A stretch of 64,000 nt of DNA from contig NZ_JAMTCS010000003.1 in the NCBI RefSeq assembly GCF_024171955.1, positions 310,001 to 374,000 on the forward strand, given 5' to 3'. This document shows positions 35,546-50,178 of the stretch, one piece after another. The stretch is from Promicromonospora thailandica. Lineage in GTDB: Bacteria > Actinomycetota > Actinomycetes > Actinomycetales > Cellulomonadaceae. Within the stretch, counting starts at the first letter, position 1; each line of letters opens with the position of its first letter. The translations under genes and the position numbers were made by a program. The notes below the pieces were generated by a model. It searched no databases. It was given only the letters and a program-made list of their open reading frames with translations, and had not been told where the DNA came from.

Positions 35546-38500
35546 ATGCACGACGACATCACACTGACCACCGGGCGCGCGACACGCGTGCTCACGGAGC
35601 GCATCTGGCCGGCCGTCCACGGGACGTCCGTCCCGCTGGAGGTCGAGTGGCACGCCCTGCCGGGGGAGCCGATCCCCCCGACCGAGGGCCTCGCCCTGGC
35701 GATGGAGCCCTACGAGGTCGGCACCCCGTGGGGTCCGGCGTGGGGCACGACGTGGTTCCGGCTGACGGGCACCGTGCCCGCCGAGTGGGCGGGCCGCGCG
35801 ATCGAGGCCGTGCTGGACCTCGGGTTCGACAGCAGCATGCCCGGCTTCCAGGCCGAGGCGTTGGTGTACCGGCCCGACGGCACGACCGTGAAGTCCATCA
35901 ACCCGCGCAACCAGTACGTGCCGGTGGCGGAGCAGGCGGCCGGCGGCGAGCGGGTCGAGCTGTTCCTGGAGGCCGCCTCCAACCCGGTGCTGCTCGGGCA
36001 CGACGCGTTCCGGCAGACCCAGGAGGGCGACGTCCGGACGTCGTCCCCGCGGCCCCTGTACACGACGCGCCGCCTGGACCTGGCGATCTTCGAGGCCGAG
36101 GTGCACGCGCTCGCGCTCGACGTCGAGGTGCTGCTGGAGCTCCAGGCCGAGCTGCCCGCGGGCCCGCGCCGCATGCGTGTGCTGCAGGCGCTGGACGACG
36201 CGCTCGACGTGCTCGACCTGCAGCGCATCCCCCAGACGGCGGCCGCCGCCCGGGCGCGGCTCGCCGACGTGCTGGCCAGCCCGGCCGACGCCAGCGCCCA
36301 CGAGATCTCCGCCGTCGGGCACGCGCACATCGACTCGGCCTGGCTGTGGCCGGTGCGGGAGACGATCCGCAAGGTCGCGCGCACGACGTCGTCCATGGCC
36401 GACCTCATCGACCGCACCGAGGACTTCGTGTACGGCATGTCCTCCGCGCAGCAGTACGCGTGGGTCAAGGAGCACCGCCCCGAGGTGTGGGAGCGGATCA
36501 AGGAGGCCGTGGCCAAGGGCCGGTTCCTGCCGCTGGGCGGCATGTGGGTCGAGTCCGACACGGTGATGCCCTCGGGCGAGGCGCTGGCCCGCCAGTTCTC
36601 GCAGGGGCAGCGCTTCTTCGAGCGCGAGTTCGGCCTGCGCACGCACGGTGTCTGGCTGCCGGACTCGTTCGGCTACTCGCCGGCCCTGCCGCAGCTCGTG
36701 CGCCGCGCGGGCTTCGACTGGTTCTTCACGCAGAAGATCTCGTGGAACCAGGTCAACGTCTTCCCGCACCACACCTTCTGGTGGGAGGGCATCGACGGGT
36801 CCCGCGTGCTGACGCACTTCCCGCCCATGGACACCTACAACTCGCAGCTCTCGGGCGAGGAGCTCGCGCGGGCCACGCGCCAGTTCCGCGAGGCGCGGCA
36901 CGCCACGGGCTCGATCGCGCCGGTGGGCTGGGGCGACGGCGGCGGTGGCACCACCCGCGAGATGACCGGCAAGGCCGAGCGCCTGGCCGACCTCGAGGGC
37001 AGCGCCAAGGTGCGCTGGGAGCACCCGGACGCGTTCTTCGAGCGCGCCCGGGCGGAGATCGACGCGGCAGGGCCGGGTGACAGCGCTGTCTGGGTGGGTG
37101 AGCTCTACCTGGAGCTGCACCGCGCCACCCTGACCTCGCAGCACAAGACCAAGCAGGGCAACCGGCGCAACGAGCAGCTGCTGGTCGAGGCCGAGGCGTG
37201 GGCCGCCGCGGCGTCGGCCCGGACGGGTACGCCGTACCCGTACGACGAGCTGGACGACCTGTGGCAGCAGGTGCTGCTCATGCAGTTCCACGACATCCTG
37301 CCCGGCACGTCCGTGGCCTGGGTGCACCGGGAGGCCGTGGAGCGGCACGCCGTGGTCACGGCGGGCGCCCAGCAGATCATCGAGCGGTCGCTGCGCGCCC
37401 TGGCCGGCGAGGGCGACGTGCCCCTGCGGGCCAACCCGGCGGCGTTCGCCCAGGCGGGCGTGCCCGCGCTCGCGGTGGCACCGGCGCAGGACCCGGAGGC
37501 GTCGTCGAGCACGCTGACCGAGCTGCCGGGCGGCGGCTACGAGCTCGCCAACGACCTCGTCCGCATCACGTTGGACGCGGCGGGGCACGTGACCTCCGCC
37601 GTCGACCTGGCCACGGGCCGCGACGCCGTGGCGCCGGGCCGGGAGGCCAACGTGCTGCAGCTGCACCAGGACTTCCCGAACAAGTGGGACGCCTGGGACG
37701 TGGACCGGTTCTACCGCAACTCGGTGACCGACCTGCGGGAGGCGGAGAAGGTCTCGGCGGCGGTCGAGGACGGCGTGGCCGTGGTGCGCGTGCACCGGGT
37801 GTTCTCGTCCTCCAGCCTCGACCAGGTGCTCACCCTGGCGCCGGGCAGCCGGACGCTCGAGGTCACCATGGCCACCGACTGGCACGAGGCGGAGAAGTTC
37901 CTCAAGGTCGCCTTCCCGCTCGACGTCCGCGCCGAGCACGTGGCGGCCGAGACGCAGTTCGGCTTCCACAAGCGCGTCACCCACACCAACACGAGCTGGG
38001 AGGCCGCGAAGTTCGAGACCTCCATGCACCGGTGGGTGCTGGCCGAGGAGCCGGGCTTCGGCGTGGGCCTGGTCAACGACTCGGTGTACGGGTACGACGT
38101 GACGCGCGAGGTGTCCGACGGCGGCGTCGCGCCGGCGGCGGGCTCGCCCGACGTGACGACGACGGTGCGCCTGTCCCTGCTGCGCGCCCCGCGGTTCCCC
38201 GACCCGGAGACGGACCAGGGCGTGCAGACGCACCGCTACGGTCTGGTCGTCGGCGTGGACGTCGCGGGCGCGACCGAGGCGGGCACGACGTTCGGCGCCC
38301 GGCCGCGCGAGCTGCGGGGCGCGGCGGGCGTCGAGCCGCTCGTGGCGGTGTCCGGCGGCGTGACGCTGTCGGCGGTCAAGCTGGCCGACGACCGGTCCGG
38401 CGACCTCGTCGTGCGGGTCTACGAGGCGCTCGGACGCCGCGCGTCGGGCACCGTGACGGTGGCCGTGCCGGTGTCGGGTGCGCGCACGGTCAGCCTCATC

Positions 38501-38599
38501 GAGGACGACGTCACGGACGGCGCCCTGCCGGTCGCCGACGCCGTCGCGGTCGACCTGGGCCCGTTCGAGGTGCGCACCCTGCGCTTCACGCGCGCCTGA
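35546..38599 (+). CDS. Alpha-mannosidase, GH38
   Basis: 1017 residues, no signal peptide, so cytoplasmic. GH38 features: zinc site in GHAHIDSAWLWP (H261, D263), catalytic nucleophile D373 in WLPDSFGYSPALPQ, and MQFHDILPGTSVAWVH in the linker to the C-terminal beta domains. Family members release mannose from alpha-mannosides; linkage specificity cannot be read. RBS GGGGAGG precedes ATG. It is 187 bases upstream of the sugar-ABC operon, after its own hairpin, so it is probably a separate transcript. Confidence 0.93.
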   Translation: MHDDITLTTGRATRVLTERIWPAVHGTSVPLEVEWHALPGEPIPPTEGLALAMEPYEVGTPWGPAWGTTWFRLTGTVPAEWAGRAIEAVLDLGFDSSMPGFQAEALVYRPDGTTVKSINPRNQYVPVAEQAAGGERVELFLEAASNPVLLGHDAFRQTQEGDVRTSSPRPLYTTRRLDLAIFEAEVHALALDVEVLLELQAELPAGPRRMRVLQALDDALDVLDLQRIPQTAAAARARLADVLASPADASAHEISAVGHAHIDSAWLWPVRETIRKVARTTSSMADLIDRTEDFVYGMSSAQQYAWVKEHRPEVWERIKEAVAKGRFLPLGGMWVESDTVMPSGEALARQFSQGQRFFEREFGLRTHGVWLPDSFGYSPALPQLVRRAGFDWFFTQKISWNQVNVFPHHTFWWEGIDGSRVLTHFPPMDTYNSQLSGEELARATRQFREARHATGSIAPVGWGDGGGGTTREMTGKAERLADLEGSAKVRWEHPDAFFERARAEIDAAGPGDSAVWVGELYLELHRATLTSQHKTKQGNRRNEQLLVEAEAWAAAASARTGTPYPYDELDDLWQQVLLMQFHDILPGTSVAWVHREAVERHAVVTAGAQQIIERSLRALAGEGDVPLRANPAAFAQAGVPALAVAPAQDPEASSSTLTELPGGGYELANDLVRITLDAAGHVTSAVDLATGRDAVAPGREANVLQLHQDFPNKWDAWDVDRFYRNSVTDLREAEKVSAAVEDGVAVVRVHRVFSSSSLDQVLTLAPGSRTLEVTMATDWHEAEKFLKVAFPLDVRAEHVAAETQFGFHKRVTHTNTSWEAAKFETSMHRWVLAEEPGFGVGLVNDSVYGYDVTREVSDGGVAPAAGSPDVTTTVRLSLLRAPRFPDPETDQGVQTHRYGLVVGVDVAGATEAGTTFGARPRELRGAAGVEPLVAVSGGVTLSAVKLADDRSGDLVVRVYEALGRRASGTVTVAVPVSGARTVSLIEDDVTDGALPVADAVAVDLGPFEVRTLRFTRA

Positions 38600-38610
38600 C
38601 GAGAGCACCG

Positions 38611-38660
38611 CACGTGTCGGACGTACGGGTCGCACCGGCGGCCCGTACGTCCGGCACGTG
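38611..38660 (+). terminator. Hairpin after the GH38 gene
   Basis: Arms of 19 bases (38611-38629, 38642-38660) with one mismatch, starting 12 bases after the stop. Separates GH38 from the next promoter. Confidence 0.75.
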
Positions 38661-38674
38661 GGTGGCGTCAGCTC

Positions 38675-38725
38675 TTGACACCCGTGCCGGAGCAGCGGGA
38701 CTCTGGGCGCGCTAAAGCGCTTTAG
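38675..38725 (+). promoter_or_regulatory. Promoter with LacI-type operator for the sugar-ABC operon
   Basis: TTGACA (38675-38680) is a consensus -35; GACTCT (38699-38704) is a weak -10 at 18 bases. The operator CTAAAGCGCTTTAG (38712-38725) is a perfect 14-bp palindrome with central CG, the LacI-family pattern, placed over the start of transcription, so repressor binding would block it. A one-base variant at 50165-50178 precedes the GH18 gene. Confidence 0.75.
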
Positions 38726-38786
38726 TCGGCGCACGGCGACGACATCGACCTCAGGCGCGACGAGGCTTCTGCTGGAAGGAACTGTC

Positions 38787-40079
38787 ATGAACTCACGGAG
38801 GTTCGGGGCCGCGGGCCTCGCCCTGGCCGTGCTGACCGTGCTGCCCCTGGGCGGCTGTGCGCTCGACGGCACGGGCGGCGGCGAGCAGACCGAGGCGGCG
38901 GACGCCTCGGGCGAGGTGACCGGCGAGGTCACGCTCCAGACCTGGGCGCTCAAGCCCAGCTTCACCGGCTACGTCGAGGGCGTCATCGACGCCTTCGAGA
39001 AGCAGTACCCGGGCACCACGGTGACCTGGCTCGACCAGCCCGGCGACGGCTACTCCGAGAAGGTGCTCGCGCAGGCCGCGGCTGGCGAGCTGCCCGACGT
39101 GACGAACCTGCCCCCGGACTTCGCGCTCTCGCTGGCGCGCGAGGGCCTGCTCACCGACCTCTCGACCGTCGACGACACACTGGCGGACACCTACGTGGCC
39201 GGCGCGCTCGACGCGTACCGCTACGGCGGCATCGAGGGCACGTACGGCTACCCCTGGTACCTCACCACGGACCTGAACTACTGGAACACCGAGATGCTCG
39301 AGGAGGCGGGCCTGGACCCCGCCCGCCTGCCCACCACGCTCGACGAGCTCGTCGCCCAGGCGCAGACCATGAAGGACGCGACCGGCGAGTACCTGATGAG
39401 CCGCAAGCCCGGCCTGGGCGACTTCGCCGCGGCGGGCCTGCCGGTGCTGTCGGACGACGGCACGCAGTTCACGTTCGACACGCCCGAGGCAGCGGCGATC
39501 CTGGACGTGTACCGCGACGCGTACGCCGACGGCCTGCTGCCGGACGACGTGCTCACCGACGCCTACCTGGGCAACAGCCAGCTCTTCACCGAGGGCAAGG
39601 TGGCGTGGACCACCGGTGGCGGCAACTTCATCGACAGCGTGCTGGAGAACAACCCCTCGCTGGAGGGCAAGATCACGTCCTCGCCGTACATCGGCGCCAC
39701 GCCGCTGTACGTGCAGGGCGTGTCCGTCTCCCACGGGTCGGACAACCCGGCCACGGCGCTCGCGCTGGCGCAGTTCCTGACGAACGCCGCCAACCAGGAG
39801 GAGTTCGCCGAGCAGGTGCCCGGCATCTTCCCGTCCACCACGTCCTCGCAGGAGAACCCGGAGCTGGCCGAGAGCGACGGCACCCCGCAGGGCGCGGCCA
39901 AGCAGATCGCGTTCGGCAACCTGACCACGGCGCGGGTGCTGCAGCCCGTCGAGGTCACCGAGGCGATGGTGACCATCGTGAACCAGCAGTTCGCGGCGGC
40001 GATCGCGGGGGACAAGACCTCCGCGGAGGCCCTCGAGGCGGCGGTCGACGAGTGCAACAAGCTGCTCGCCGACCAATGA
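38787..40079 (+). CDS. ABC sugar importer, substrate-binding lipoprotein
   Basis: 430 residues. Lipoprotein signal with lipobox LGGC (C24), then a type-I extracellular solute-binding fold (family 1, CUT1): AFEKQYPGTTVTWLDQPGDG, YGYPWYLTTDLNYWNTEML, VAWTTGGGNF, SHGSDNPATALALAQFLTN. Binds a sugar or oligosaccharide; mannose-containing glycans are inferred from neighbours. RBS GGAAGGA. First gene behind the operator; overlaps the next gene by four bases. Confidence 0.93.
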   Translation: MNSRRFGAAGLALAVLTVLPLGGCALDGTGGGEQTEAADASGEVTGEVTLQTWALKPSFTGYVEGVIDAFEKQYPGTTVTWLDQPGDGYSEKVLAQAAAGELPDVTNLPPDFALSLAREGLLTDLSTVDDTLADTYVAGALDAYRYGGIEGTYGYPWYLTTDLNYWNTEMLEEAGLDPARLPTTLDELVAQAQTMKDATGEYLMSRKPGLGDFAAAGLPVLSDDGTQFTFDTPEAAAILDVYRDAYADGLLPDDVLTDAYLGNSQLFTEGKVAWTTGGGNFIDSVLENNPSLEGKITSSPYIGATPLYVQGVSVSHGSDNPATALALAQFLTNAANQEEFAEQVPGIFPSTTSSQENPELAESDGTPQGAAKQIAFGNLTTARVLQPVEVTEAMVTIVNQQFAAAIAGDKTSAEALEAAVDECNKLLADQ

Positions 40080-41059
40080 CCCGCCCAGCGACCCGCCCAG
40101 CGGAACGGACGTCGTCGCGGACGCCGTCCCGCGGGGCCCGGACCCTCCTGGTCCGGGCCCTGCCCGCGGCCGGCCCGGGCCACGCGGCCCGCACCCACGC
40201 GTGGTTCACGCCGTGGCTGCTGGTCGCGCCGGCGCTCGTGTTCCTGCTCGCCTTCAACCTCTGGCCGACGGCGAACGTCGTGTTCCTCGCGTTCACGAAC
40301 GTGCGGGTGCTGTCGGGTGGCGAGCTGGTGGGCCTGGAGAACTTCGAGCGCATGCTCACCGACGAGCAGCTGGCCACGGCGCTGGTCAACTCGATCGTCT
40401 ACATGCTCGTGTGCGTGCCGTTCCTGCTCCTGGTGCCGCTGGGGCTGGCGGTGCTCGTGGAGAAGAAGCTGCCCGGCATCGCGTTCTTCCGCACCGCGTT
40501 CTACACGCCCGTGGTGGCCTCGGCGGTCGTGGTGGCCCTGATCTGGGGCTGGCTGCTCGACGACCGGGGCGTCATCAACGCCATGGCGCTGCGGCTCGGG
40601 TTCGTCACGGAGGCGATCCCGTTCCTCACCGACCGCTGGCTCGTCATCTTCAGCGCCATCAGCCTGACGATCTGGAAGGGGCTGGGCTACTACATGGTCA
40701 TCTACCTGTCGGCCCTCGGGGGCGTGCCGCGCGAGCTGCACGAGGCCGCCGCCGTCGACGGCGCGGGCGCGCTGCGCCGGTTCTGGTCGGTCACCGTGCC
40801 GGGCGTGCGCAACACCATGCTGCTGGTGTCGGTGATGATCACCGTGTCCGCGCTGCGCGTGTTCGCCGAGCTCTACGTGCTCACGGACGGGACGGGCGGG
40901 GTCGGGGGCGCCGACGTGTCCGTGGTCATGCTCATCCAGATGTACGCGCGCGGGTTCAGCGGCAACCTCGGGTACGCCTCGGCGCTCTCGCTGCTGCTGT
41001 TCGTCGTCACGCTCGCGCCGCTGCTCCTCATCGCGCGGATCAACCGGGGGCGGGGCTGA
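40076..41059 (+). CDS. ABC sugar importer permease 1 (MalF-like)
   Basis: 327 residues, six or more membrane helices after a basic N-terminus. The EAA loop is EAAAVDGAGALRRFWSVTVP, the ATPase contact. CUT1 family. No ATPase gene in the operon, so a shared one (MsiK-type) elsewhere must drive transport. Overlaps both neighbours. Confidence 0.93.
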   Translation: MTRPATRPAERTSSRTPSRGARTLLVRALPAAGPGHAARTHAWFTPWLLVAPALVFLLAFNLWPTANVVFLAFTNVRVLSGGELVGLENFERMLTDEQLATALVNSIVYMLVCVPFLLLVPLGLAVLVEKKLPGIAFFRTAFYTPVVASAVVVALIWGWLLDDRGVINAMALRLGFVTEAIPFLTDRWLVIFSAISLTIWKGLGYYMVIYLSALGGVPRELHEAAAVDGAGALRRFWSVTVPGVRNTMLLVSVMITVSALRVFAELYVLTDGTGGVGGADVSVVMLIQMYARGFSGNLGYASALSLLLFVVTLAPLLLIARINRGRG

Positions 41060-41931
41060 TGGGCGCCCGGGTCGTCACCGCCCGCACCGGCGCGCGCGGC
41101 TTCTCGACGCCGTCGCCCCGCGAGGTCGTGCTGCGGTACCTGCTCCTGGTGGTGGCGCTGTTCGTGACGGTCGGCCCCTTCCTGTGGCAGCTGTCGACGT
41201 CGCTCAAGGGCGCGGGGGAGGACGTCTACACCTCGACGCCGAGCTTCGTGCCGAGCGAGCCCACCCTGGACAACTACGCCCGGGCGTTCGAGGCCGTGCC
41301 GATCCTGGGGTTCGCCGGCAACTCGCTGGTGGTGGCGGGCATCGTGGTGGTGGGCAACATCGTGGGCGCCACCCTGGCCGGGTACGCGCTGGCGCGGCTG
41401 CGGTTCCGCGGGGCGCGGCTCGTGCTCGGGGCCATCCTGTTCACCATGCTGCTGCCCGGCGAGGCGACGATCGTGGCGCAGTACCTGACCATCCGGCAGC
41501 TCGGCCTCGCCGACACGCTGCTCGGCGTCGCGCTGCCCGGTGCCGTCGGCATGCTCAACGTGCTGCTCATGCGCACGGCGTTCGTCGCCGTGCCCAAGGA
41601 GCTGGACGAGGCCGCGATCGTGGACGGCGCGAACGCCTGGCAGCGGCTGTGGCACGTGGGCGTGCCCAACGTGCTGGGCATGCTGGCGGTCGTGGCGATC
41701 TTCGCGTTCATCGGCGCGTGGGACGACTTCCTGTGGCCGCTCATCGTGCTCACCACGCCGGAGAAGTTCACGCTCACCGTGGGCCTGGAGTACCTGTCCG
41801 GGACGTTCACGAACAACCCGCGCGTCGTGGCGGCGGGCACCATGATCGCGTTCGTCCCGATCGTGGTCTTCTTCGCGGCCCTGCAGCGGTACTTCTTCCG
41901 CGGGGTCGACGAGGGGGCGATCAAGGGGTGA
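41059..41931 (+). CDS. ABC sugar importer permease 2 (MalG-like)
   Basis: 290 residues with six hydrophobic helices. EAA loop EAAIVDGANAWQRLWHVGVP. Starts in the stop of permease 1. Its C-terminus (LQRYFFRGVDEGAIKG) is the conserved MalG tail, needed for ATPase contact. Last transport gene before the regulator. Confidence 0.93.
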   Translation: MGARVVTARTGARGFSTPSPREVVLRYLLLVVALFVTVGPFLWQLSTSLKGAGEDVYTSTPSFVPSEPTLDNYARAFEAVPILGFAGNSLVVAGIVVVGNIVGATLAGYALARLRFRGARLVLGAILFTMLLPGEATIVAQYLTIRQLGLADTLLGVALPGAVGMLNVLLMRTAFVAVPKELDEAAIVDGANAWQRLWHVGVPNVLGMLAVVAIFAFIGAWDDFLWPLIVLTTPEKFTLTVGLEYLSGTFTNNPRVVAAGTMIAFVPIVVFFAALQRYFFRGVDEGAIKG

Positions 41932-42974
41932 CCACAGCACGCCGTCCGGGCCGCAGGCCCACCATCGCCGACATCGCCGCCCGCGCGGGCGTGTCCCCGA
42001 CGGCGGTCTCGTTCGCGCTCAACGACCGGCCGGGCATCAGCGACGCCACCCGGGCGCGGATCCTGGCGGCCGTCGCCGAGCTGGGCTGGCGGCCCAACGT
42101 CGCCGCCCGCGCGCTCGGCGGGCGGCGCGCCGACACGATCGGGCTCGTCGTGGCCCGCCCGGCCCGGACGCTCGGGGTCGAGCCGTTCTTCGCCCAGCTC
42201 GTCTCGGGCCTGCAGGCGCGCCTGTCGGCCGACCTCGTCGCGCTCCAGCTCCTCGTGGTGGAGGACACCGCCGCCGAGCTCGACGTGTACCGGCGGTGGA
42301 CGGCCGAGCGGCGCACCGACGGCGTCGTCGTGCTCGACCTGGAGCAGGACGACCCGCGCCCCGACGCCCTGGTCGAGATGGGCCTGCCCGCCGTGCTGGT
42401 GGGCGGCGACGGCGCGCCCGGGCCCGTGCCCGCGGTGTTCGCCGACGACCACGCCGCGATGACGGCGCTCGCCGAGCACCTCGCCGGGCTCGGCCACGTG
42501 CGCGTGGGTCACGTGGGCGGCATCTCCGCCTACGTGCACTCCGCACGCCGCGTGGCCGCCCTGCACGACGCCGGGGCGCGCCTCGGCCTGGACATCACCA
42601 CCGTGCCGACGGACTTCTCGCAGGACGAGGCCGCGGCAGCGACACGGGCGCTCCTCGCCCACGACGAAAGGCCCACTGCCATCGTGTACGACTCCGACGT
42701 GGCCGCGCTCGCGGGCGTCACCGTGCTGGCCGAGGCCGGCCTCGGTGTGCCCGGGGACGTCTCGGTCGCCTCCTTCGACGACTCCGAGCTGGTGCGCCTC
42801 GCGCACCCGCCGCTGACCGCCATGACCCGCGACACGTTCGAGCTCGGCGAGCTCGTGGCGCGGACCGTGCTGTCGGTGGTGCGCGGCCAGGCGGTGGCCG
42901 ACGTCGTCACCGCGCCCACGCCCGCCCTCACGGTGCGCGGCAGCACGGGTGCGGTCCCGGGGGTGGCGGCATGA
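41928..42974 (+). CDS. LacI-family transcriptional repressor of the mannoside locus
   Basis: 348 residues. N-terminal HTH with hinge helix (PTIADIAARAGVSPTAVSFALNDRP, in two parts; then WRPNVAARAL), followed by a periplasmic-binding-like sensor domain (TIGLVVARP, DGVVVLDLE, VASFDDSELVRLAHPPLT). GTG start overlaps the permease stop. Co-transcribed with what it most likely controls; binding sites at 38712-38725 and 50165-50178 are the proposed targets. Inducer unknown, probably a mannose-type sugar. Confidence 0.92.
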   Translation: MTTARRPGRRPTIADIAARAGVSPTAVSFALNDRPGISDATRARILAAVAELGWRPNVAARALGGRRADTIGLVVARPARTLGVEPFFAQLVSGLQARLSADLVALQLLVVEDTAAELDVYRRWTAERRTDGVVVLDLEQDDPRPDALVEMGLPAVLVGGDGAPGPVPAVFADDHAAMTALAEHLAGLGHVRVGHVGGISAYVHSARRVAALHDAGARLGLDITTVPTDFSQDEAAAATRALLAHDERPTAIVYDSDVAALAGVTVLAEAGLGVPGDVSVASFDDSELVRLAHPPLTAMTRDTFELGELVARTVLSVVRGQAVADVVTAPTPALTVRGSTGAVPGVAA

Positions 42975-45900
42975 CCGGCCCGGCGCACGTCCCCGCCGGC
43001 CGGCCCGGCGTCGGCCTGACCGGCGAGCACGCGCGGCTCGTCGAGCACGACGGCCCCGGCCGCACGGTGGTGCTCGACGGCCTCGACGTGCCCCTGGAGG
43101 CGGGCCTCACCCTGCGCTGGGCGCTGCTGCCCGTGCTCGACGCCGACCTCACCTACCGCTCCACGCACGTCGCCGTCGACCTGCTGCTCGACGACGGCTC
43201 CTGGCTCACCGAGACCGGGCCGGGCCGTGCGCTGACCGACCAGCACGGCATGCCCGCCACCGCGCAGGGCCAGGGCGCGGCCCGCATCCTCGTCGCCGAC
43301 CACTGGAACGTGGTGCGCGTCGACCTCGACGCCGCCGCCGAGGGCCTGCCCGGCCGCCGCGTGCGCGCCGCGGCCGTCGTCACCGCGCCGCCGGACGGCG
43401 GGCGCACCGAGGTCTGGTTCGACGACGTGACCGTGGCCCTCCGGCAGCCGCGCGCCGGCACGGGGCGCACCGACCTGGTGGACACCCGGCGCGGCACGCA
43501 CTCCTCCGGCGCCTACTCGCGCGGCAACAACGTGCCCGCCGCCGCCGTGCCCAACGGCTTCACGCTCTGGGTGCCGCTCACCGACGCCGCGACCGAGCGC
43601 TGGATGTACTCGTGGGCCGCGCACAACGGCCCGGGCAACCGGCCGCGCCTGCAGGGCGTCGGCATCTCGCACGTGCCGAGCCCCTGGATGGGCGACCGCG
43701 ACCAGCTCGCGTTCCACCTCGTCCCCGCACGGGACGGCGTCGAGGTACCCGACGCGGGCCTGGCGGCCCGCTCGCTCGCCTTCTCGCACGACGCCGAGAC
43801 CGCCCGCCCGCACCGCTACGACGTCGACCTGGACGGCGGCGCGCGCGTGGCCGTCGCGGCGTCCGACCACGGCGGCGTGCTGCGGTTCACCTTCCCACCG
43901 GGCGCCGCCACGGGGCACCTCGTGGTCGACGCCGTGAGCGACGCCGGGGCCGACGGCGCCCCCGTCGAGGTCACCGTGCACGACGACGGCACCCTCACCG
44001 GCTGGAGCGACCACGGCAGCACCCTGTCGGTGGGCCGCAGCCGCATGTACGTCGTGGGCCGCATCTCCCGGTCCGTGCTCCGCACCGGGCGGGCCGCCGG
44101 CCGCGACCACGCCACCTACGCGACGGTCGCGCTCGATCCGGCGGCGGGGGAGGCGGGCCGCACGGTCGAGGTGCGCGTGGCGACGTCGTACATCAGCGAG
44201 GACCTCGCCTGGCGCGCGCTCGGGCGCGAGGTGTCCGGCACCTTCGAGGAGGTGGCCGAGCGCACGCGAGCCCTCTGGGAGGAGCGGCTCGGCGTGCTCG
44301 ACGTCGCGGGCGCCACCGACGAGCAGCTCGTCACCCTGTACTCCAACCTGTACCGGCTCAACCTCTATCCCTCCTCCTACACGGAGACCGACGCCGACGG
44401 CGCGCCCGTGCACGCCTCGCCCGTGCTCGACGGCGCCCCCGTGCGCCCCGGCGAGATGTACGTCAACCACGGGTTCTGGGACACCTACCGCACCTGCTGG
44501 CCCGCCTACGCCCTGCTGTACCCCGAGGTCGCCGCACGGCTCGCGGACGGGTTCGTGCAGCAGTACCGCGAGGGCGGCTGGGTGGCCCGGTGGTCGTCAC
44601 CGGGGTACGCCGACCTCATGACCGGCACCTCGTCCGACGTCGCCTTCGCCGACCTCTACCTGCGCGACGTCCCCCTGCCCGACCCCCTGGCCACCTACGA
44701 CGCCGGCCTGCGCAACGCCACCGCCCTGCCGGGGCTGCCCGGGGTGGGCCGCAAGGGCCAGGCCTTCGCGCTCACCCGCGGCTGGGTGCCGCGCGACGTC
44801 GAGGAGTCGGTGTCGTGGGGCCTGGAGGGCTACATCAACGACGCGGGGCTGGCGCGCATGGCGCGGGCGCTCGCCGACGCGCCGTCGACCCCGGACGAGC
44901 GCCGCCGCGCGCTGCGCGACGAGGCCGCCTACCTGCACCAGAGCTCGCTCGGCTACGTGCACCTGTTCGACGCCGGCACGGGCTTCTTCCGCGGCCGCGG
45001 GCGGGACGGCGCCTTCGCGCCCGGCCCGTTCGACCCCGACGCGTGGGGCGGCGACTACACCGAGTCCGACGCGTGGAACTTCCTGTTCCACCCCGTGCAC
45101 GACGGCGCGGGCCTCGCGGCGCTGCACCGCGGGCCCGCGGGCCTGGAGGCGCTGCTGGAGCGGTTCTTCGCGACGCCCGAGCGTGCCGACAAGCCCGGCT
45201 CCTACGGGCAGCCGATCCACGAGATGGTCGAGGCGCGCGACGTGCGGCTCGGGCAGCTCGGGCAGTCCAACCAGGTCTCGCACCACATCCCCTACGTGTG
45301 GTTGTTCGCGGGGCGGCCGGACCGTACGCAGGAGACCGTGCGCGAGATCCTGGCGCGGCTGTGGACCGGCAGCGAGATCGGCCAGGGGTACCACGGCGAC
45401 GAGGACAACGGCGAGATGTCCGCCTGGTACGTGCTCTCCGCGCTGGGGCTGTACCCGCTGGAGATCGGCTCGTCGCGGTGGGCCGTGGGCTCGCCGCTGT
45501 TCGAGCGCGCCGTGGTGCACCGGCCCGGCGGCGACCTCGTCGTCGAGGCGCCGGACGCGGCGCGGCGCTGGTACGTGGCGGGGCTCTGTCTGGTCGACGG
45601 CGCCGGGGCCGAGCGGGCGGTCGAGGTGCCGTCCGTGGAGCACGGCGACCTGACCGGGGGAGCGACGCTGCGGTTCGCGCTGTCGGCGACGCCGGCCGGC
45701 TGGGGTGCGGCGGGCGGCTCGCCGCGACCGTCCGACGGCCCCTGGGGCCGGGCGGCGGGCACCTGGCGCGGCGCGGACGGGCCCCTGCAGGAGCTCACGG
45801 ACGGCGACCTGACGACGCCCGCTCAGGTGTCGGGCGCGCTCGAGTGGCGTCCGGCGGACGCCGGATCGGGCGGGGCGCTCGTCGGCTACACGCTGACCTC

Positions 45901-46105
45901 GGCGGGCGCCGGTGCGCCGCCGTCGGCCTGGCGCCTGGTCGCCGACGACGGGCGGGTGCTGGACGAGCGCTCCGGGGAGCGGTGGCCCTGGCCGGGCCAG
46001 CTGCGCCCCTTCGTGCTCGACGAGCCCGTGCCGCTGACGGGCCTGCGCCTGGAGCTCGCGGACGGCGGCACCCTGACCCAGATCGAGCTCCTGACCCGCC
46101 CCTGA
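42971..46105 (+). CDS. Alpha-mannosidase, GH92
   Basis: 1044 residues, no signal peptide. GH92 layout: N-terminal beta domain (about 1-400, with RRGTHSSGAYSRGNNVP and VPNGFTLWVPLT), then the (alpha/alpha)6 catalytic domain with NHGFWDTYRT, GGWVARWSSPGYADLMTGTS and the calcium/acid site GDEDNGEMSAWYVLSALG (E815). GH92 enzymes remove alpha-1,2, -1,3, -1,4 or -1,6 mannose, calcium-dependent. Overlaps lacI by four bases, so it is under the same operator. A hairpin follows. Confidence 0.93.
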   Translation: MTGPAHVPAGRPGVGLTGEHARLVEHDGPGRTVVLDGLDVPLEAGLTLRWALLPVLDADLTYRSTHVAVDLLLDDGSWLTETGPGRALTDQHGMPATAQGQGAARILVADHWNVVRVDLDAAAEGLPGRRVRAAAVVTAPPDGGRTEVWFDDVTVALRQPRAGTGRTDLVDTRRGTHSSGAYSRGNNVPAAAVPNGFTLWVPLTDAATERWMYSWAAHNGPGNRPRLQGVGISHVPSPWMGDRDQLAFHLVPARDGVEVPDAGLAARSLAFSHDAETARPHRYDVDLDGGARVAVAASDHGGVLRFTFPPGAATGHLVVDAVSDAGADGAPVEVTVHDDGTLTGWSDHGSTLSVGRSRMYVVGRISRSVLRTGRAAGRDHATYATVALDPAAGEAGRTVEVRVATSYISEDLAWRALGREVSGTFEEVAERTRALWEERLGVLDVAGATDEQLVTLYSNLYRLNLYPSSYTETDADGAPVHASPVLDGAPVRPGEMYVNHGFWDTYRTCWPAYALLYPEVAARLADGFVQQYREGGWVARWSSPGYADLMTGTSSDVAFADLYLRDVPLPDPLATYDAGLRNATALPGLPGVGRKGQAFALTRGWVPRDVEESVSWGLEGYINDAGLARMARALADAPSTPDERRRALRDEAAYLHQSSLGYVHLFDAGTGFFRGRGRDGAFAPGPFDPDAWGGDYTESDAWNFLFHPVHDGAGLAALHRGPAGLEALLERFFATPERADKPGSYGQPIHEMVEARDVRLGQLGQSNQVSHHIPYVWLFAGRPDRTQETVREILARLWTGSEIGQGYHGDEDNGEMSAWYVLSALGLYPLEIGSSRWAVGSPLFERAVVHRPGGDLVVEAPDAARRWYVAGLCLVDGAGAERAVEVPSVEHGDLTGGATLRFALSATPAGWGAAGGSPRPSDGPWGRAAGTWRGADGPLQELTDGDLTTPAQVSGALEWRPADAGSGGALVGYTLTSAGAGAPPSAWRLVADDGRVLDERSGERWPWPGQLRPFVLDEPVPLTGLRLELADGGTLTQIELLTRP

Positions 46106-46116
46106 CGCACCACCCC

Positions 46117-46155
46117 CCACCCCCGCACCCCACCGGCACCGGGGTGCGGGGGTGG
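46117..46155 (+). terminator. Hairpin ending the mannoside operon
   Basis: Arms of 15 bases (46117-46131, 46141-46155; CCACCCCCGCACCCC with its complement), nine-base loop. Begins 12 bases after the GH92 stop. Confidence 0.78.
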
Positions 46156-46239
46156 TCCGGCATGTGAGAAGTTTCCGGCGAGCGTTGACGACGGGCAGGT
46201 CTCTTCGTATCTTCTTCGCCATCGAGACAGATCCATTAT

Positions 46240-46249
46240 TCCGATCGGA
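46240..46249. promoter_or_regulatory. TCCGATCGGA palindrome ahead of the SAM-IV riboswitch
   Basis: A perfect 10-bp palindrome in an AT-richer stretch (46200-46268) just upstream of the riboswitch, likely at the promoter. Could be the site of a sulfur or redox regulator; only the symmetry is seen. Confidence 0.35.
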
Positions 46250-46274
46250 CTGATAGGAAAAGTGGATCCGTCCC

Positions 46275-46378
46275 GGCAAGGTCATGAGCTCCGACGCCAA
46301 GCCCCGGCTGGTCGGACGGCAACCCCCCGCGCGGGTGGGTGCCCCGGGTGAGGACCAGGCCCGTCGCCGACCGGCGGC
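46275..46378 (+). ncRNA. SAM-IV riboswitch
   Basis: The core shows GGTCATGAG (46280-46288), then CCAAGCCCCGGCTGGTC, GGCAACC, and GTGCCCCGGGTGAGGACC, in the order and spacing of the actinobacterial SAM-IV class. P1 pairs GGTC with GACC. It binds S-adenosylmethionine and turns downstream genes off. Its targets are the short ORF at 46427 and the monooxygenase at 46739. Confidence 0.85.
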
Positions 46379-46426
46379 GGACAACACGCGTCGCTCGCCG
46401 CAGGCGAGCAGGTGAGGAGAACGACG

Positions 46427-46552
46427 ATGACCCGGAGCACCGCCCCCGCCGTCCACGTGTCCCTGCCGCCCACCGCCTCCGTCCGGCCCTGCGCCGGCCC
46501 GCACGAGGACACCCCGCACGAGGCCATGTCGTGTCGCCGGTCGTGTCGCTGA
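46427..46552 (+). CDS. 41-residue Cys-containing leader ORF
   Basis: ATG behind a strong GAGGAGA box, 50 bases after the riboswitch. Ends AMSCRRSCR, with Cys/Arg codons next to the stop. Short cys-leader peptides of actinobacteria, which sense cysteine supply, have this shape; this one is unproven. The next 186 bases (46553-46738) hold no gene: C-rich and G-poor at 46560-46665, as in Rho-loading sites. Confidence 0.5.
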   Translation: MTRSTAPAVHVSLPPTASVRPCAGPHEDTPHEAMSCRRSCR

Positions 46553-46738
46553 CCGCCGCGACCTCGGTCCGCTGACCGCGCCCGGTCCGGCCGACCCAGC
46601 CCCCACACGTCCTCCGACGTCTCTCGCCTGCCCTCCGGTAGCCCCCCGCCCCGGTGCACCCGCCGTCGCGCGCCCTCCCGCGCCGCCGGCAGGGCGCCGT
46701 GGACGGTCGCGCAGCCGCAGCCCGAACGGAGCCCCGCC

Positions 46739-47893
46739 GTGCCCTACCCTCCGCAGCCCACCTCGCTCAGATCTTCCCTCCGCCCGCTCGCGCTGGGCGT
46801 CGACCTGACCGCCGCCGGCGCCCGACCGGGTGCGCACCGGTCCCGCGGCCCCGTCCCGCCGCGGCCGTTCGACGGCGAGCGCTTCCTGCAGCTCGTGCGG
46901 ACCGCCGACCGCTGCCTGCTCGACCTCGTCACGCTCGACGAGGACTTCCTGCTGCACCCCGGGCGCGGCCAGGTCACCGGCCGGCTCGACACCGTGGTGG
47001 CCGCGGCCCGGGCCGCGCGCGTCACGACCAGCGTGGGCCTGGTGCCCGCGGTCGACACGGTGCACGTCGAGGCCGCGCACGCCGCCGTCGCCCTGAGCAG
47101 CGTGGACCGGGCGAGCGGGGGCCGGGCGGGCTGGCAGGCGGCCCGGCAGACGGCCGTCGCCGAGGCCGACGAGGCCTGGGCGGCGCGCGTCGAGCCGGGC
47201 ATCCAGTCGGTGCACCAGGTCTGGACCGGGCGGCCCGGTTCCGGTTCCGGTGCGGTCGAGCTCGACGCCGACGGCCGGTTCCGGGTGGACCACGACGGCA
47301 TCCGGTTCGCCGTCCGCGGGCGCACGGCGGGCGTCGGCGGGGCGCTGTCACGGGTGCGCCCGCCCGTCGTAGTACGGGTGCGGTCCGCGGCGAGCGCGGC
47401 GCTCGCCGGGCGCACGGCCGACGTCGCGCGCGTCGTGGCGACCGAGACCGCGCAGGCGGCGCGGCTGCGCCGGCTGGTGCGCGACTCGGCCCTGTCCGCC
47501 GGGCGGGACCCGGAGTCCGTCCGGGTGCTGGTCGAGGTGTACGTGGTGCTCGCGCAGGAGCGGGCCGGTGCGCGGGCGCGGCTCGAGCTCGTCGAGGCGC
47601 TCGAGGGGACCGCGCCCATGGGCGGCGCGCTCGTCGTCGCGGACACGCCGGACGAGCTCGCGACCCTCCTGGCGGACTGGGCGGCGGTGGGGGCGGCGGA
47701 CGGTTTCCTGCTGCGGCCCTCCTCGCTCGGCGCGGACCTGGACTCGATCGCGGACCACCTCGTGCCGGCCCTGCAGCGCGCGGGCCTGTTCCGCACCGCA
47801 CGCACGGCGACGACCCTGCGCGGCGCGCTCGGCCTGCCGGACGCCGGGACCGCGCCGCGCGCGGTCCCCACGGGCCGGCTGCTCAGCGCATGA
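46739..47893 (+). CDS. Luciferase-like (LLM class) flavin-dependent monooxygenase
   Basis: 384 residues. TIM-barrel pieces of the LLM family: FDGERFLQLVRTADRC, ARVTTSVGLVPAVDTVHVE, and a C-terminus near ADGFLLRPSSLGADLDSIADHLVPALQRAGLFR (in parts), as in the NTA/SsuD/DszA branch. That branch takes FMNH2 and often cleaves C-S bonds; sulfur scavenging fits the SAM-IV riboswitch upstream. The central part (residues 135-230) is atypical, so activity is not certain. GTG 46739 start, weak RBS. Confidence 0.72.
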   Translation: MPYPPQPTSLRSSLRPLALGVDLTAAGARPGAHRSRGPVPPRPFDGERFLQLVRTADRCLLDLVTLDEDFLLHPGRGQVTGRLDTVVAAARAARVTTSVGLVPAVDTVHVEAAHAAVALSSVDRASGGRAGWQAARQTAVAEADEAWAARVEPGIQSVHQVWTGRPGSGSGAVELDADGRFRVDHDGIRFAVRGRTAGVGGALSRVRPPVVVRVRSAASAALAGRTADVARVVATETAQAARLRRLVRDSALSAGRDPESVRVLVEVYVVLAQERAGARARLELVEALEGTAPMGGALVVADTPDELATLLADWAAVGAADGFLLRPSSLGADLDSIADHLVPALQRAGLFRTARTATTLRGALGLPDAGTAPRAVPTGRLLSA

Positions 47894-47949
47894 CGGGCGC
47901 CGCGAACAGGAAGAAATCCGACGAGTCCACAAAACTTCTCAAGAGTCCA

Positions 47950-48075
47950 TATACTGACCCGATCGCGCACTCCAGGCCGAGAACAGGCCGACGGCGGGGC
48001 AACGCAGCCCTCCCGGCATGTGAGACGGCGAATCAGGGCATTGACGAAACCACCCTGAACGTGAGTGCGTAGCCT
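47950..48075 (+). ncRNA. Candidate structured leader of the nitroreductase gene
   Basis: TATACT (47950-47955) looks like a -10. From about 47962 the leader can close on itself: CGCACTC (47966-47972) pairs with GAGTGCG (48063-48069). Inside are hairpins GGGC-AACGCA-GCCC (47997-48010) and CAGGG/CCCTG (48034-48057). A GGCAAC piece recalls S-box RNAs, but I cannot assign a class. Upstream, GAGTCCA occurs twice (47923, 47943), 20 bases apart. Ends about 20 bases before the RBS. Confidence 0.4.
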
Positions 48076-48098
48076 TCCGTCCACCCCACGGAGCTCTC

Positions 48099-49088
48099 AT
48101 GACAGCCATCGACGCCTTTCCGGTCACCACCCCGACCGAGACCGCTCCCGACCCGACGACCCGACCCGCCGGCCGGACCGCCCACGCCCGGCCGGTCCGC
48201 CACCGCGAGGCGCCCGAGCGGCCCGGCCGCCTCGCCGTGGCACGTGCCCAGGTGGCCGCCCGCTACGGCGTGAGCCGACGCCGGGCCGACGCCGCCGCGC
48301 CGCAGGTCGCCGCCACGGTCGCCGCCGCGGCCGACCTGCCCCGGTCGGTGCTCGACGTCCAGCTCGCCCACCGGTCCGTGCGCCGGTTCCTGCCCCGCCC
48401 GCTCGCGCCGTCGGTGCTGCCCACGCTCGTGGCCGCCGCGCAGTCCGCCCCGACGTCGTCGAACCTCCAGCTCTGGAGCGTCGTCGCGATCACGGACCCC
48501 GCGCGCCTCGCGCGCGTCGCGAAGCTCTCGGGCGAGCAGGACCACGTGCGCTGCGCGCCCCTCCTGCTGGTCTGGGTCGCCGACGTCGCCCGCGTACGCA
48601 CCCTGGCCGCCCGCCGCGGCCGGAGCGTCCCGGCGACCGGGTACCTCGAGACCACGGTGGCCGCGTTCCTGGACGCGGCGCTCGCGGCGCAGAACGCCGT
48701 CGTCGCGGCCGAGTCGCTCGGGCTCGGGACGGTCTACCTCGGAGGCGTCCGGGACGCTCCGGAGGCCCTGGCTGCCGAGCTCCGGCTGCCGCGCGGCGCG
48801 GCGCCCGTGGTCGGCCTCGTCGTGGGTCACCCCGACCCCGGCTGCCCGGGGCGGGTCAAGCCGCGCCTGCCGCAGGCCGCCGTCCTGCACCACGAGACGT
48901 ACGACGTGAACCGCCAGCTGCGGCCGGTGGCCGCCTACGAGCGACGCATGGCCGAGTTCTACCGGGACGAGGGCCTGGAGGGCGGCTGGGTCGCGCGCGC
49001 GGTGACGCGCCTGCGCGGCAACGGCTCGCTGCGCGGCCGGGAGCACCTGCGCTCGGCGCTGGCCGCGCTGGGCCTGCCGTCCTGGTAG
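48099..49088 (+). CDS. Nitroreductase-family flavin reductase (NfsA-like)
   Basis: 329 residues. An N-terminal extension (about 1-80), then the nitroreductase fold: HRSVRRFLPRPL, SAPTSSNLQLWSVVAI for FMN binding, GLGTVYLGGVRD, and VVGLVVGHPDP. The NfsA/FRP group uses NADPH to reduce FMN or nitro compounds. Could supply FMNH2 to the LLM enzyme just upstream (inference). RBS GGAG. Its end forms one arm of a terminator. Confidence 0.85.
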   Translation: MTAIDAFPVTTPTETAPDPTTRPAGRTAHARPVRHREAPERPGRLAVARAQVAARYGVSRRRADAAAPQVAATVAAAADLPRSVLDVQLAHRSVRRFLPRPLAPSVLPTLVAAAQSAPTSSNLQLWSVVAITDPARLARVAKLSGEQDHVRCAPLLLVWVADVARVRTLAARRGRSVPATGYLETTVAAFLDAALAAQNAVVAAESLGLGTVYLGGVRDAPEALAAELRLPRGAAPVVGLVVGHPDPGCPGRVKPRLPQAAVLHHETYDVNRQLRPVAAYERRMAEFYRDEGLEGGWVARAVTRLRGNGSLRGREHLRSALAALGLPSW

Positions 49089-49115
49089 AAGTCCTGGCAG
49101 GGACGGCAGGCCCAG
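49068..49115. terminator. Hairpin at the nitroreductase/GH18 junction
   Basis: CTGGGCCTGCCGTCC (49068-49082) and its exact complement (49101-49115), 18-base loop. The left arm lies in the last codons of the nitroreductase. Serves two convergent genes. Confidence 0.72.
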
Positions 49116-49139
49116 GGGCGGGCCGTGCTCGGGGCAGGG

Positions 49140-50117
49140 TCAGCGGCCGACGACGTCCGCCACGTGCGCGAACCAGGAGGTGCGGTCACCGCCGTCGTAC
49201 CCGACGGAGTTGAAGTACTCCCAGCCGAAGACGCCGCCGAAGTCCGGGTGGCGGGCCACGAGCGTGCCCACCGTGGCGTCGAAGGTGGGCCAGTCGACGT
49301 ACCCGCCGCAGTTGGCGGGGTTGGTCACGGTGCCCGCCACCACGCGGCCCGGGGTGAAGCCGTTGGCGAGGATCTGGTCGTACACCGTGGTCGACCGCAG
49401 GTCGCCCCAGCCGCAGTAGAACTGCGTGTTGTACCAGTCGATCCGGTCGCCGGCCCGCCGCTCCAGCTCGGCGTAGGAGAAGCCGCCCGAGAAGCTGGTC
49501 CGCCCGGCCATGTCGGTGGCCACGGGCGTGAGCGTGACGACGAAGTCCTGGCCGAAGTCGGCGCGCAGCGCGTCGATCAGGTGGATCGTGTCGTCGAGGG
49601 AGAACGTCTCCTCGATGTCGAGGTCCACGCCGTCCAGCCCGTACGTGCGCAGGAAGTCGCGCAGCACAGGGTAGAACCGGTCGAAGTCCTCACGCAGGTA
49701 GCGGTACGTGCCCGGGGCGGCCCCGCCGAGGAAGGCGCTGACCGTGACGCCCTGGTCCTGCATCGTGGCCAGGTCGTCCCACATCACGTCGAGCTCGGGG
49801 TGGTCGGCCGGGATGTCGTTCACGGTGAGCGACGCGTCGGCGTTGAGGTGGATCGCCCCCATGTTGACGTCGGTGACCGAGCCCACGAGGGGCTTCGGGT
49901 CGACGTACCGGCGCACGCCGTCCGAGCCGGTCTCGTAGATCGTCTGGTAGAAGGCGAGGACGCGGTGCGAGGCGTCGTCGGGCGCCTGGTCGAATGCCTG
50001 GTCGAATGCCTGGTCGGGTGCGGGCGGTGGTGCGGAGGCGGCAGGTCCGGCCGCGGCGGTCAGGGCGAGCAGGCCGGCCGCGAGGGCGGCGCCGATTCGG
50101 GCGAGCGAGCGGGACAT
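49140..50117 (-). CDS. Secreted GH18 enzyme, possibly endo-beta-N-acetylglucosaminidase
   Basis: 325 residues. Signal peptide to about residue 29, then a short Asp/Gln/Ala/Phe linker with a 12-bp repeat (DQAFDQAFDQ), then a single GH18 barrel. Catalytic line GLDGVDLDIEE, acid E169. AIHLNADASLTVNDIPADHP and VSAFLGGAAPGTYRYL resemble ENGase-like GH18 more than chitinases with binding modules; there is no CBM. ENGases cut the chitobiose core of N-glycans. RBS AAGGGAG. A LacI-type operator lies just upstream, linking it to the mannoside operon. Confidence 0.85.
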   Translation of the reverse strand: MSRSLARIGAALAAGLLALTAAAGPAASAPPPAPDQAFDQAFDQAPDDASHRVLAFYQTIYETGSDGVRRYVDPKPLVGSVTDVNMGAIHLNADASLTVNDIPADHPELDVMWDDLATMQDQGVTVSAFLGGAAPGTYRYLREDFDRFYPVLRDFLRTYGLDGVDLDIEETFSLDDTIHLIDALRADFGQDFVVTLTPVATDMAGRTSFSGGFSYAELERRAGDRIDWYNTQFYCGWGDLRSTTVYDQILANGFTPGRVVAGTVTNPANCGGYVDWPTFDATVGTLVARHPDFGGVFGWEYFNSVGYDGGDRTSWFAHVADVVGR

Positions 50118-50164
50118 CGTTGGCTCCCTTGGTCTCCGGGCGGTACGAGCGGGCGGTGCGGCGC

Positions 50165-50178
50165 CTAAACCGCTTTAG
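50165..50178 (-). promoter_or_regulatory. LacI-type operator in front of the secreted GH18 gene
   Basis: On the minus strand CTAAAGCGGTTTAG, 13 of 14 bases equal to the operator at 38712-38725. Ends 48 bases before the GH18 start. TAGCGT (about 50193-50198 on the minus strand) may be the -10. Confidence 0.75.

Follow-up and report, generated by a model that had tools for sequence, protein, structure and literature searches.

The question raised by this locus is whether a sugar-importer operon and a separate gene for a secreted glycoside hydrolase of family GH18 in Promicromonospora thailandica are controlled together, and which substrate they would serve. The DNA analysed is a stretch of 64,000 nucleotides (positions 310,001 to 374,000 of contig NZ_JAMTCS010000003.1, here C3), referred to as the window, from a genome of 5,380,599 bases in 24 contigs. 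The initial annotation, made from the letters of the window, had placed a 14-bp motif before the importer operon and the same motif, identical at 13 of 14 positions, before the GH18 gene, and had proposed a LacI-controlled regulon joining the two loci in a high-mannose N-glycan pathway. Sequence comparison lends this proposal support: no further copy of the sites exists in the genome, their occurrence tracks the LacI regulator across the genus, and in other genera the same site precedes genes for Endo H and for GH5_18 enzymes. We consider it highly probable that the local LacI repressor and two 14-bp palindromes control an N-glycan importer operon and a secreted GH18 enzyme resembling Endo T.

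The features of this system, in window coordinates, are as follows.

35546-38599, plus strand: GH38 alpha-mannosidase, Pfam GH38 domains over cut-off; closest solved structure 7ufr (2.8e-237)
38712-38725, no strand assigned: predicted LacI operator 1, CTAAAGCGCTTTAG, 61 bp upstream of the start codon of the solute-binding protein (SBP) gene
38787-40079, plus strand: SBP of the importer, sugar-binding lipoprotein-like (PF13416, PF01547)
40076-41059, plus strand: importer permease A (PF00528)
41059-41931, plus strand: importer permease B (PF00528)
41928-42974, plus strand: LacI-family regulator (PF00356 and PF13377 over cut-off)
42971-46105, plus strand: GH92 alpha-mannosidase (PF07971, PF17678); closest solved structure 7nsn (1.1e-216)
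49140-50117, minus strand: GH18, secreted, Endo T-like, probable endo-beta-N-acetylglucosaminidase (PF00704; matches to 2y8v and 4ac1)
50165-50178, no strand assigned: predicted LacI operator 2, CTAAACCGCTTTAG (CTAAAGCGGTTTAG on the GH18 strand), 47 bp upstream of the GH18 start codon

Both motifs were found at the positions given by the initial annotation, and its gene calls (GH38, SBP, two permeases, LacI, GH92 and the minus-strand GH18) were borne out by Pfam. Neighbouring genes in the series SBP-permease-permease-LacI-GH92 overlap by 1 or 4 bases, an arrangement that makes the five look like a single transcript. The lacI gene begins with GTG and overlaps the permease B gene (the protein used in our searches, P0004, starts at its codon 2), and its product carries a helix-turn-helix and a sugar-binding-like sensor domain. 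The nearest structure to the window GH92, 7nsn, is a GH92 alpha-1,2-mannosidase, and the nearest to the GH38, 7ufr ('Alpha-mannosidase'), we take to be a Bifidobacterium longum enzyme. Inspected by eye, the N-terminus of the GH18 shows an apparent signal sequence, and neither GH38 nor GH92 does. An importer (SBP and two permeases) and GH92 in one locus, with GH38 adjoining, are as expected of an actinobacterial N-glycan utilisation locus.

The operator pair is rare within its own genome. When the window was scanned with up to three mismatches, the two motifs were the sole matches (0.14 expected; 2 of 100 shuffles gave two). The full-genome motif scan suggested by the initial annotation was run with the consensus CTAAANCGNTTTAG, for which the window base composition predicts a count of about 0.01 per strand; it returned the two window sites only, and its reversed control returned none. 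Allowing up to two mismatches raised the count to 5 places, the three extra ones each with two mismatches, whereas the reversed pattern gave 11. The idea of a larger regulon in this genome was rejected, since no extra site appeared at zero or one mismatch and the three two-mismatch places fall below the reversed control (the 12-bp core of the motif was not counted genome-wide). Two other GH18 genes found in the genome have no site upstream. Both predicted operators are palindromic, centred on CG, placed ahead of the genes they are predicted to control and conserved alongside the regulator. LacI-family sites usually have a CG centre and lie 30-140 bp upstream (PMC4052901). As for promoters, TTGACA lies about 30 bp upstream of site 1 in 9 of 9 aligned upstream regions of relatives, in 8 of them in the same alignment column, and site 2 follows a TAnnnT-like box that, by eye, is common to the genus. 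Coincidence was ruled out as the explanation of the motif pair by this genome-wide count together with the genus comparison and the permuted half-sites described below.

Within the genus, 13 genomes (about 77 Mb; one of them, G128, is 83% complete) were compared, with orthologues called at E <= 1e-120 for LacI and E < 1e-170 for permease A. The nearest named relatives of the LacI protein are all from Promicromonospora and 88-94% identical. Orthologues of LacI were present in 7 of the 13 genomes and GH18 in 11. The exact site occurred 12 times, twice each in G000, G048, G077, G111 and G117 and once each in G006 and G087, that is, in 7/7 genomes with the LacI orthologue and 0/6 without it, and the reversed control gave zero in all 13. 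Of the two sites in each of these five genomes, the first is about 13-61 bases upstream of the aligned start region of GH18 and the second is located where the SBP gene begins, about 3 kb ahead of lacI; for G048, G077 and G117, the SBP site was assigned from its distance to lacI and from named equivalents and not read individually. The start positions of the lacI and GH18 matches are 4.8 to 23.9 kb apart in six of the seven LacI-bearing genomes and on separate contigs in the seventh.

Permease A, sought in whole genomes (permease B in loci only), has orthologues in exactly the five two-site genomes, and G006 and G087 gave no permease A match at 1e-60 in this whole-genome search. The GH18 operator was found in 5/5 GH18-bearing genomes with both LacI and permease A and in 0/6 lacking one or both, a difference with a probability of 0.002 if the genomes were independent, but they are related. 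In the six GH18-bearing genomes without the site, a promoter-like stretch upstream of GH18 can still be aligned and, by eye, bears differing letters at the operator position. These six fall into 3 groups in a tree of the GH18 coding sequence and into 4 groups, with a different topology, in a tree of the 4-kb surroundings; support is very low at some nodes. The contig coordinates of G006 and G087 agree with the Promicromonospora iranensis records L039 and L037. At both P. iranensis loci (L037:8706-11041 and L039:8706-11041) the two permease genes are missing and the SBP gene is directly followed by lacI; SBP, LacI, GH92 and GH38 are kept and the GH18 operator is absent.

Searched for by itself, GH18 turned up in 11 of 150 family genomes at 1e-40, every one of them Promicromonospora, and at 1e-50 in only 1 of 394 class genomes, which was the source genome; more distant GH18 relatives were therefore taken from the loci of LacI relatives. 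These comprised 79 loci (L036-L114; 1.56 Mb) picked by likeness to the window LacI, and so not a random sample; the site counts that follow cover L036-L114 only, a separate set of 4-kb loci being excluded. Exact sites numbered 42, distributed over 38 of the 79 loci, whereas none of the 19 permuted half-sites and none of the 15 alternative centres scored a single occurrence. The 12-bp core was present in 42/48 loci whose LacI is at least 55% identical to that of the window and in 1/31 below that line, which was set after inspecting the list of loci. For the 47 core sites, the downstream gene was GH5_18 at 29, SBP at 7, an Endo T-like GH18 at 4, Endo H at 2 and a GH92 relative (38% identical) at 1, two lay in the gap between SBP and lacI, and two were not assigned (L052, L084); hence 44/47 stand upstream of SBP/lacI, GH5_18 beta-mannosidase, Endo T-like GH18 or Endo H genes. 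The genera that carry the core site presumably span several orders.

The proteins behind these sites bear on the substrate. P0010, a GH5_18 protein behind a core site, matches the structures of ScGH5_18 (1.7e-124) and BlGH5_18. The two Endo H proteins, one from Myceligenerans pegani and one from Streptomyces tateyamensis, have matches among Endo H structures (best 8.8e-105 and 2.1e-112) and, at 424 and 437.7 bits, exceed the 300-bit NCBIfam cut-off for the Endo H equivalog. For the Man-beta-1,4-GlcNAc bond of N-glycans three families are listed, GH5_18 among them (PMC10154615; PMC6160142). Since genes for Endo H and GH5_18 stand behind the same switch, the substrate is best read as high-mannose N-glycan.

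The core is not the limit of this family of sites. Among 11 loci viewed, 9 lack the core; seven of these have the 14-mer with one mismatch, and L051 and L083 have it with two mismatches at best. In Cellulomonas triticagri, the one-mismatch site CTGAAGCGCTTTAG lies upstream of a gene for a GH18 67% identical to that of the window. This relative (L042:11119-12591) has a long C-terminal tail that ends in an LARTG-like sorting signal and a hydrophobic stretch, and it is perhaps a cell-wall-anchored form. Related one-mismatch sites (e.g. CTAAAGCGATCTAG) also occur in Microbacterium between GH38 and lacI and before SBP (L085:9914 and 12519; L095:9913 and 12518), which suggests an operator family broader than the strict consensus.

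These comparisons also bear on which protein binds the sites. The sites might be real operators bound by another LacI paralogue instead of the LacI of the operon, given that 14 LacI-like matches were scored in the genome and that one of them, P0016 (40% identical to the window LacI), is encoded beside a GH5_18 gene with sites that share a TAAAGCG core with those of the window. The exact sites, however, track the orthologue of the window LacI (7/7 vs 0/6), even though all 13 genomes have further LacI-like matches, and the site accompanies relatives of this LacI in 42/48 loci at the 55% line. We regard binding by a paralogue as very improbable.

The nature of the GH18 enzyme was addressed by its closest structures. 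By sequence, these are 2y8v (1e-62; 41% identity) and Endo T, 4ac1 (7.4e-58; 37%), the next match being at 1.5e-10. For the predicted model (mean pLDDT 83), the first fold match is Endo T 4ac1 (TM 0.88 on target, 37% identity), followed by 2y8v (0.86-0.87, 41%). PMC3408457 discusses five residues of Endo T, of which the window GH18 retains four, namely D167, E169, Y234 and W299, which comprise the catalytic D-x-E and aromatic positions (the Endo T numbering carries an offset of 4, worked out in this analysis). No NCBIfam match was obtained at 0.001 for the window GH18, hence no Endo H equivalog match. Endo T releases high-mannose glycans (PMC3408457). The window GH18 is a probable endo-beta-N-acetylglucosaminidase of the Endo T type, as judged from these likenesses.

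A different substrate was weighed on the same evidence. The regulon could be real but serve the use of fungal cell walls, with the GH18 as a chitinase and GH92 and GH38 acting on fungal mannan fragments: the best sequence match of the GH18, 2y8v, comes from Aspergillus fumigatus and was deposited as chitinase ChiC, GH92 and GH38 enzymes also work in yeast mannan breakdown (PMC10154615), and a Streptomyces grown with yeast raised GH92 and then GH38 alpha-mannosidases as well as chitinases (PMC13170338). Against this stand the Endo H genes of M. pegani and S. tateyamensis and the 29 GH5_18 genes behind the core site, the lack of a site at the two other GH18 genes found in the genome, and the report that Endo T is not involved in chitin degradation and that its group is often misannotated as chitinases (PMC3408457). 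A fungal-wall regulon is accordingly judged unlikely, and release of high-mannose N-glycans remains the preferred reading.

The initial annotation had noted that the window holds neither an ATPase nor a beta-mannosidase gene. Both indeed lie outside it, and the genome contains elsewhere a GH5_18 gene and MalK-type ATPase sequence. The GH5_18 beta-mannosidase gene (C1:109602-110819; nearest structures 9y4v and BlGH5_18) is adjoined by the gene for P0016, with SBP and permease genes across the gap, and this gap holds GTAAAGCGGTATAC and GTGTAGCGCTTTAC (0.01 expected). The locus (L121:9082-11457 in our set) thus has GH5_18, its own LacI and two sites of G-TAAA type, divergent from a second sugar importer. 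As GH5_18 stands beside a second LacI with related but different sites, the last step of the pathway seems to be under a sister switch, perhaps with cross-binding between the two, and the locus seems to be a sister N-glycan-core locus, judged from its genes and sites. For the ATPase, the 3' part of a MalK-type gene lies at two contig ends (C12 and C14; L122 and L123) that share 683 identical bases; with the L122 fragment as query, the nearest proteins were SugC and MsmX. The two ends are either near-identical gene copies or an assembly effect.

Altogether, sequence comparison established the sites, how rare they are, their association with LacI, the importer and the GH18, and the protein families. 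The following mechanism goes further, in that we infer repression and the inducer, the specificity of cleavage, where the enzymes act and the use of the ATPase. A LacI dimer (41928-42974) would bind both palindromes, each just after a promoter, and would block both. One palindrome would govern SBP-permease-permease-lacI-GH92 and the other the secreted GH18, so that both would be off without substrate. When high-mannose N-glycans are present (e.g. from fungal, yeast or plant glycoproteins), the GH18 would cut the chitobiose core extracellularly, and the importer would take up Man(n)GlcNAc, powered by a MalK/MsiK-type ATPase encoded elsewhere. GH92 and GH38 would then remove the alpha-mannoses in the cytoplasm, and a GH5_18 enzyme encoded elsewhere would cleave the last Man-beta-GlcNAc bond. 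An internal breakdown product would probably release LacI. We also lean, with modest confidence, towards a broader view, in which a high-mannose N-glycan regulon, defined by one LacI/operator pair (CTAAANCGNTTTAG), extends over several actinomycete orders, with different endoglycosidases (Endo T-like or Endo H) behind the same switch. The bacterial Endo T-like GH18 proteins would then be a group of high-mannose endo-beta-N-acetylglucosaminidases, and the Promicromonospora pathway would be divided between two LacI paralogues, distinguished by the outer base pair of their sites (C-TAAA vs G-TAAA), one for release and import and one for the core disaccharide.

Several observations weigh against control of the whole pathway by the window LacI as proposed. 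The GH38 gene, which the initial annotation had rightly set beside the operon, has no operator of its own and ends 112 bp before site 1. The possibility that the beta-mannosidase of this genome is under the window operator was ruled out, and GH5_18 lies in a separate locus instead of the importer locus where it would be expected in an actinobacterial N-glycan system. The ATPase gene is known from its 3' part only, at two contig ends. In the genus, G006 and G087 have the SBP site only and no GH18 operator; with LacI alone as the criterion, the GH18 operator is found in 5/7 vs 0/4 genomes (0.045 if independent), and permease loss as the reason for its absence from these two genomes is an explanation found afterwards. 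The genus genomes, moreover, are related and are not independent samples. As to the enzyme, the A. fumigatus protein deposited as a putative chitinase is slightly ahead of Endo T in the sequence matches, and Phe56 of the GH18 occupies the place of Endo T Tyr12.

Comparable systems differ mainly in their enzymes and their control. The high-mannose N-glycan pathway of B. longum was reportedly described by Cordeiro et al. in 2022, and GH5_18 loci of soil and gut actinobacteria reportedly by Higgins et al. in 2021. In B. longum the glycan is likewise freed outside and imported whole, with GH38 inside and a GH5_18 relative for the core bond, and three GH38 genes and one GH125 gene form a single operon (PMC10154615). 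In P. thailandica, by comparison, release would fall to an Endo T-like GH18, the operon includes GH92, and enzyme and importer are joined by one type of predicted LacI operator. The N-glycan locus of Cutibacterium acnes, also actinobacterial, has GH38, GH5_18, GH18 and sugar ABC transporter genes, whereas Promicromonospora has GH5_18 elsewhere, in a locus that contains a LacI gene of its own; the available part of the C. acnes report describes no LacI operator (PMC6160142). Streptococcus pneumoniae shares an endoglycosidase, a sugar importer and alpha-mannosidases for N-glycans, but its GH92 trims outside and its endoglycosidase is the GH85 EndoD (PMC5215778; PMC10154615), and regulation by a two-component system is reported (PMC9603416; PMC7075642). 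The window GH18 shares with Endo T of Hypocrea jecorina (4ac1) the GH18 fold, the catalytic D-x-E and the Tyr and Trp positions (PMC3408457), and differs in being bacterial, in lying within a proposed LacI regulon and in having Phe where Endo T has Tyr12. Like the system proposed here, ManR and other LacI-family sugar regulons have an even palindrome with CG at its centre and are local; a term search of the main text of PMC4052901 brought up neither an N-glycan regulon nor the words Streptomyces or glucosaminidase. Neither the operator strings nor a comparable LacI regulon appeared in the literature searched (for the regulon by titles and abstract starts, with subscription papers mostly outside), which is no proof of novelty. 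The endoglycosidase-importer-mannosidase pathway is known in kind; the LacI switch and its pairing with a fungal-type enzyme look new.

Between GH92 and GH18 lies a SAM-IV riboswitch (46280-46392; 86 bits, gathering 38) ahead of a monooxygenase-like gene, with a weak NtaA/DmoA match, and a nitroreductase gene. These two genes were ruled out as regulon members, as they have no site and are preceded by the riboswitch; the segment 46280-49088 (plus strand) is probably a sulphur-metabolism unit that separates the halves of the regulon. A second secreted-looking GH18 (22863-24191, plus strand), without operator, has an N-terminal stretch that by eye resembles a chitin-binding module.

The secreted endoglycosidases of actinomycetes are often distant from their importer and may be mistaken for chitinases, and a rare and specific operator offers a handle on them, by which a genome's endoglycosidase, importer and core mannosidase can be located. 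The genus Promicromonospora provides a clear case of an operator that is absent wherever importer or repressor is absent. The operator also suggests N-glycan activity for the bacterial Endo T-like GH18 proteins, which may be useful for glycoprotein remodelling.

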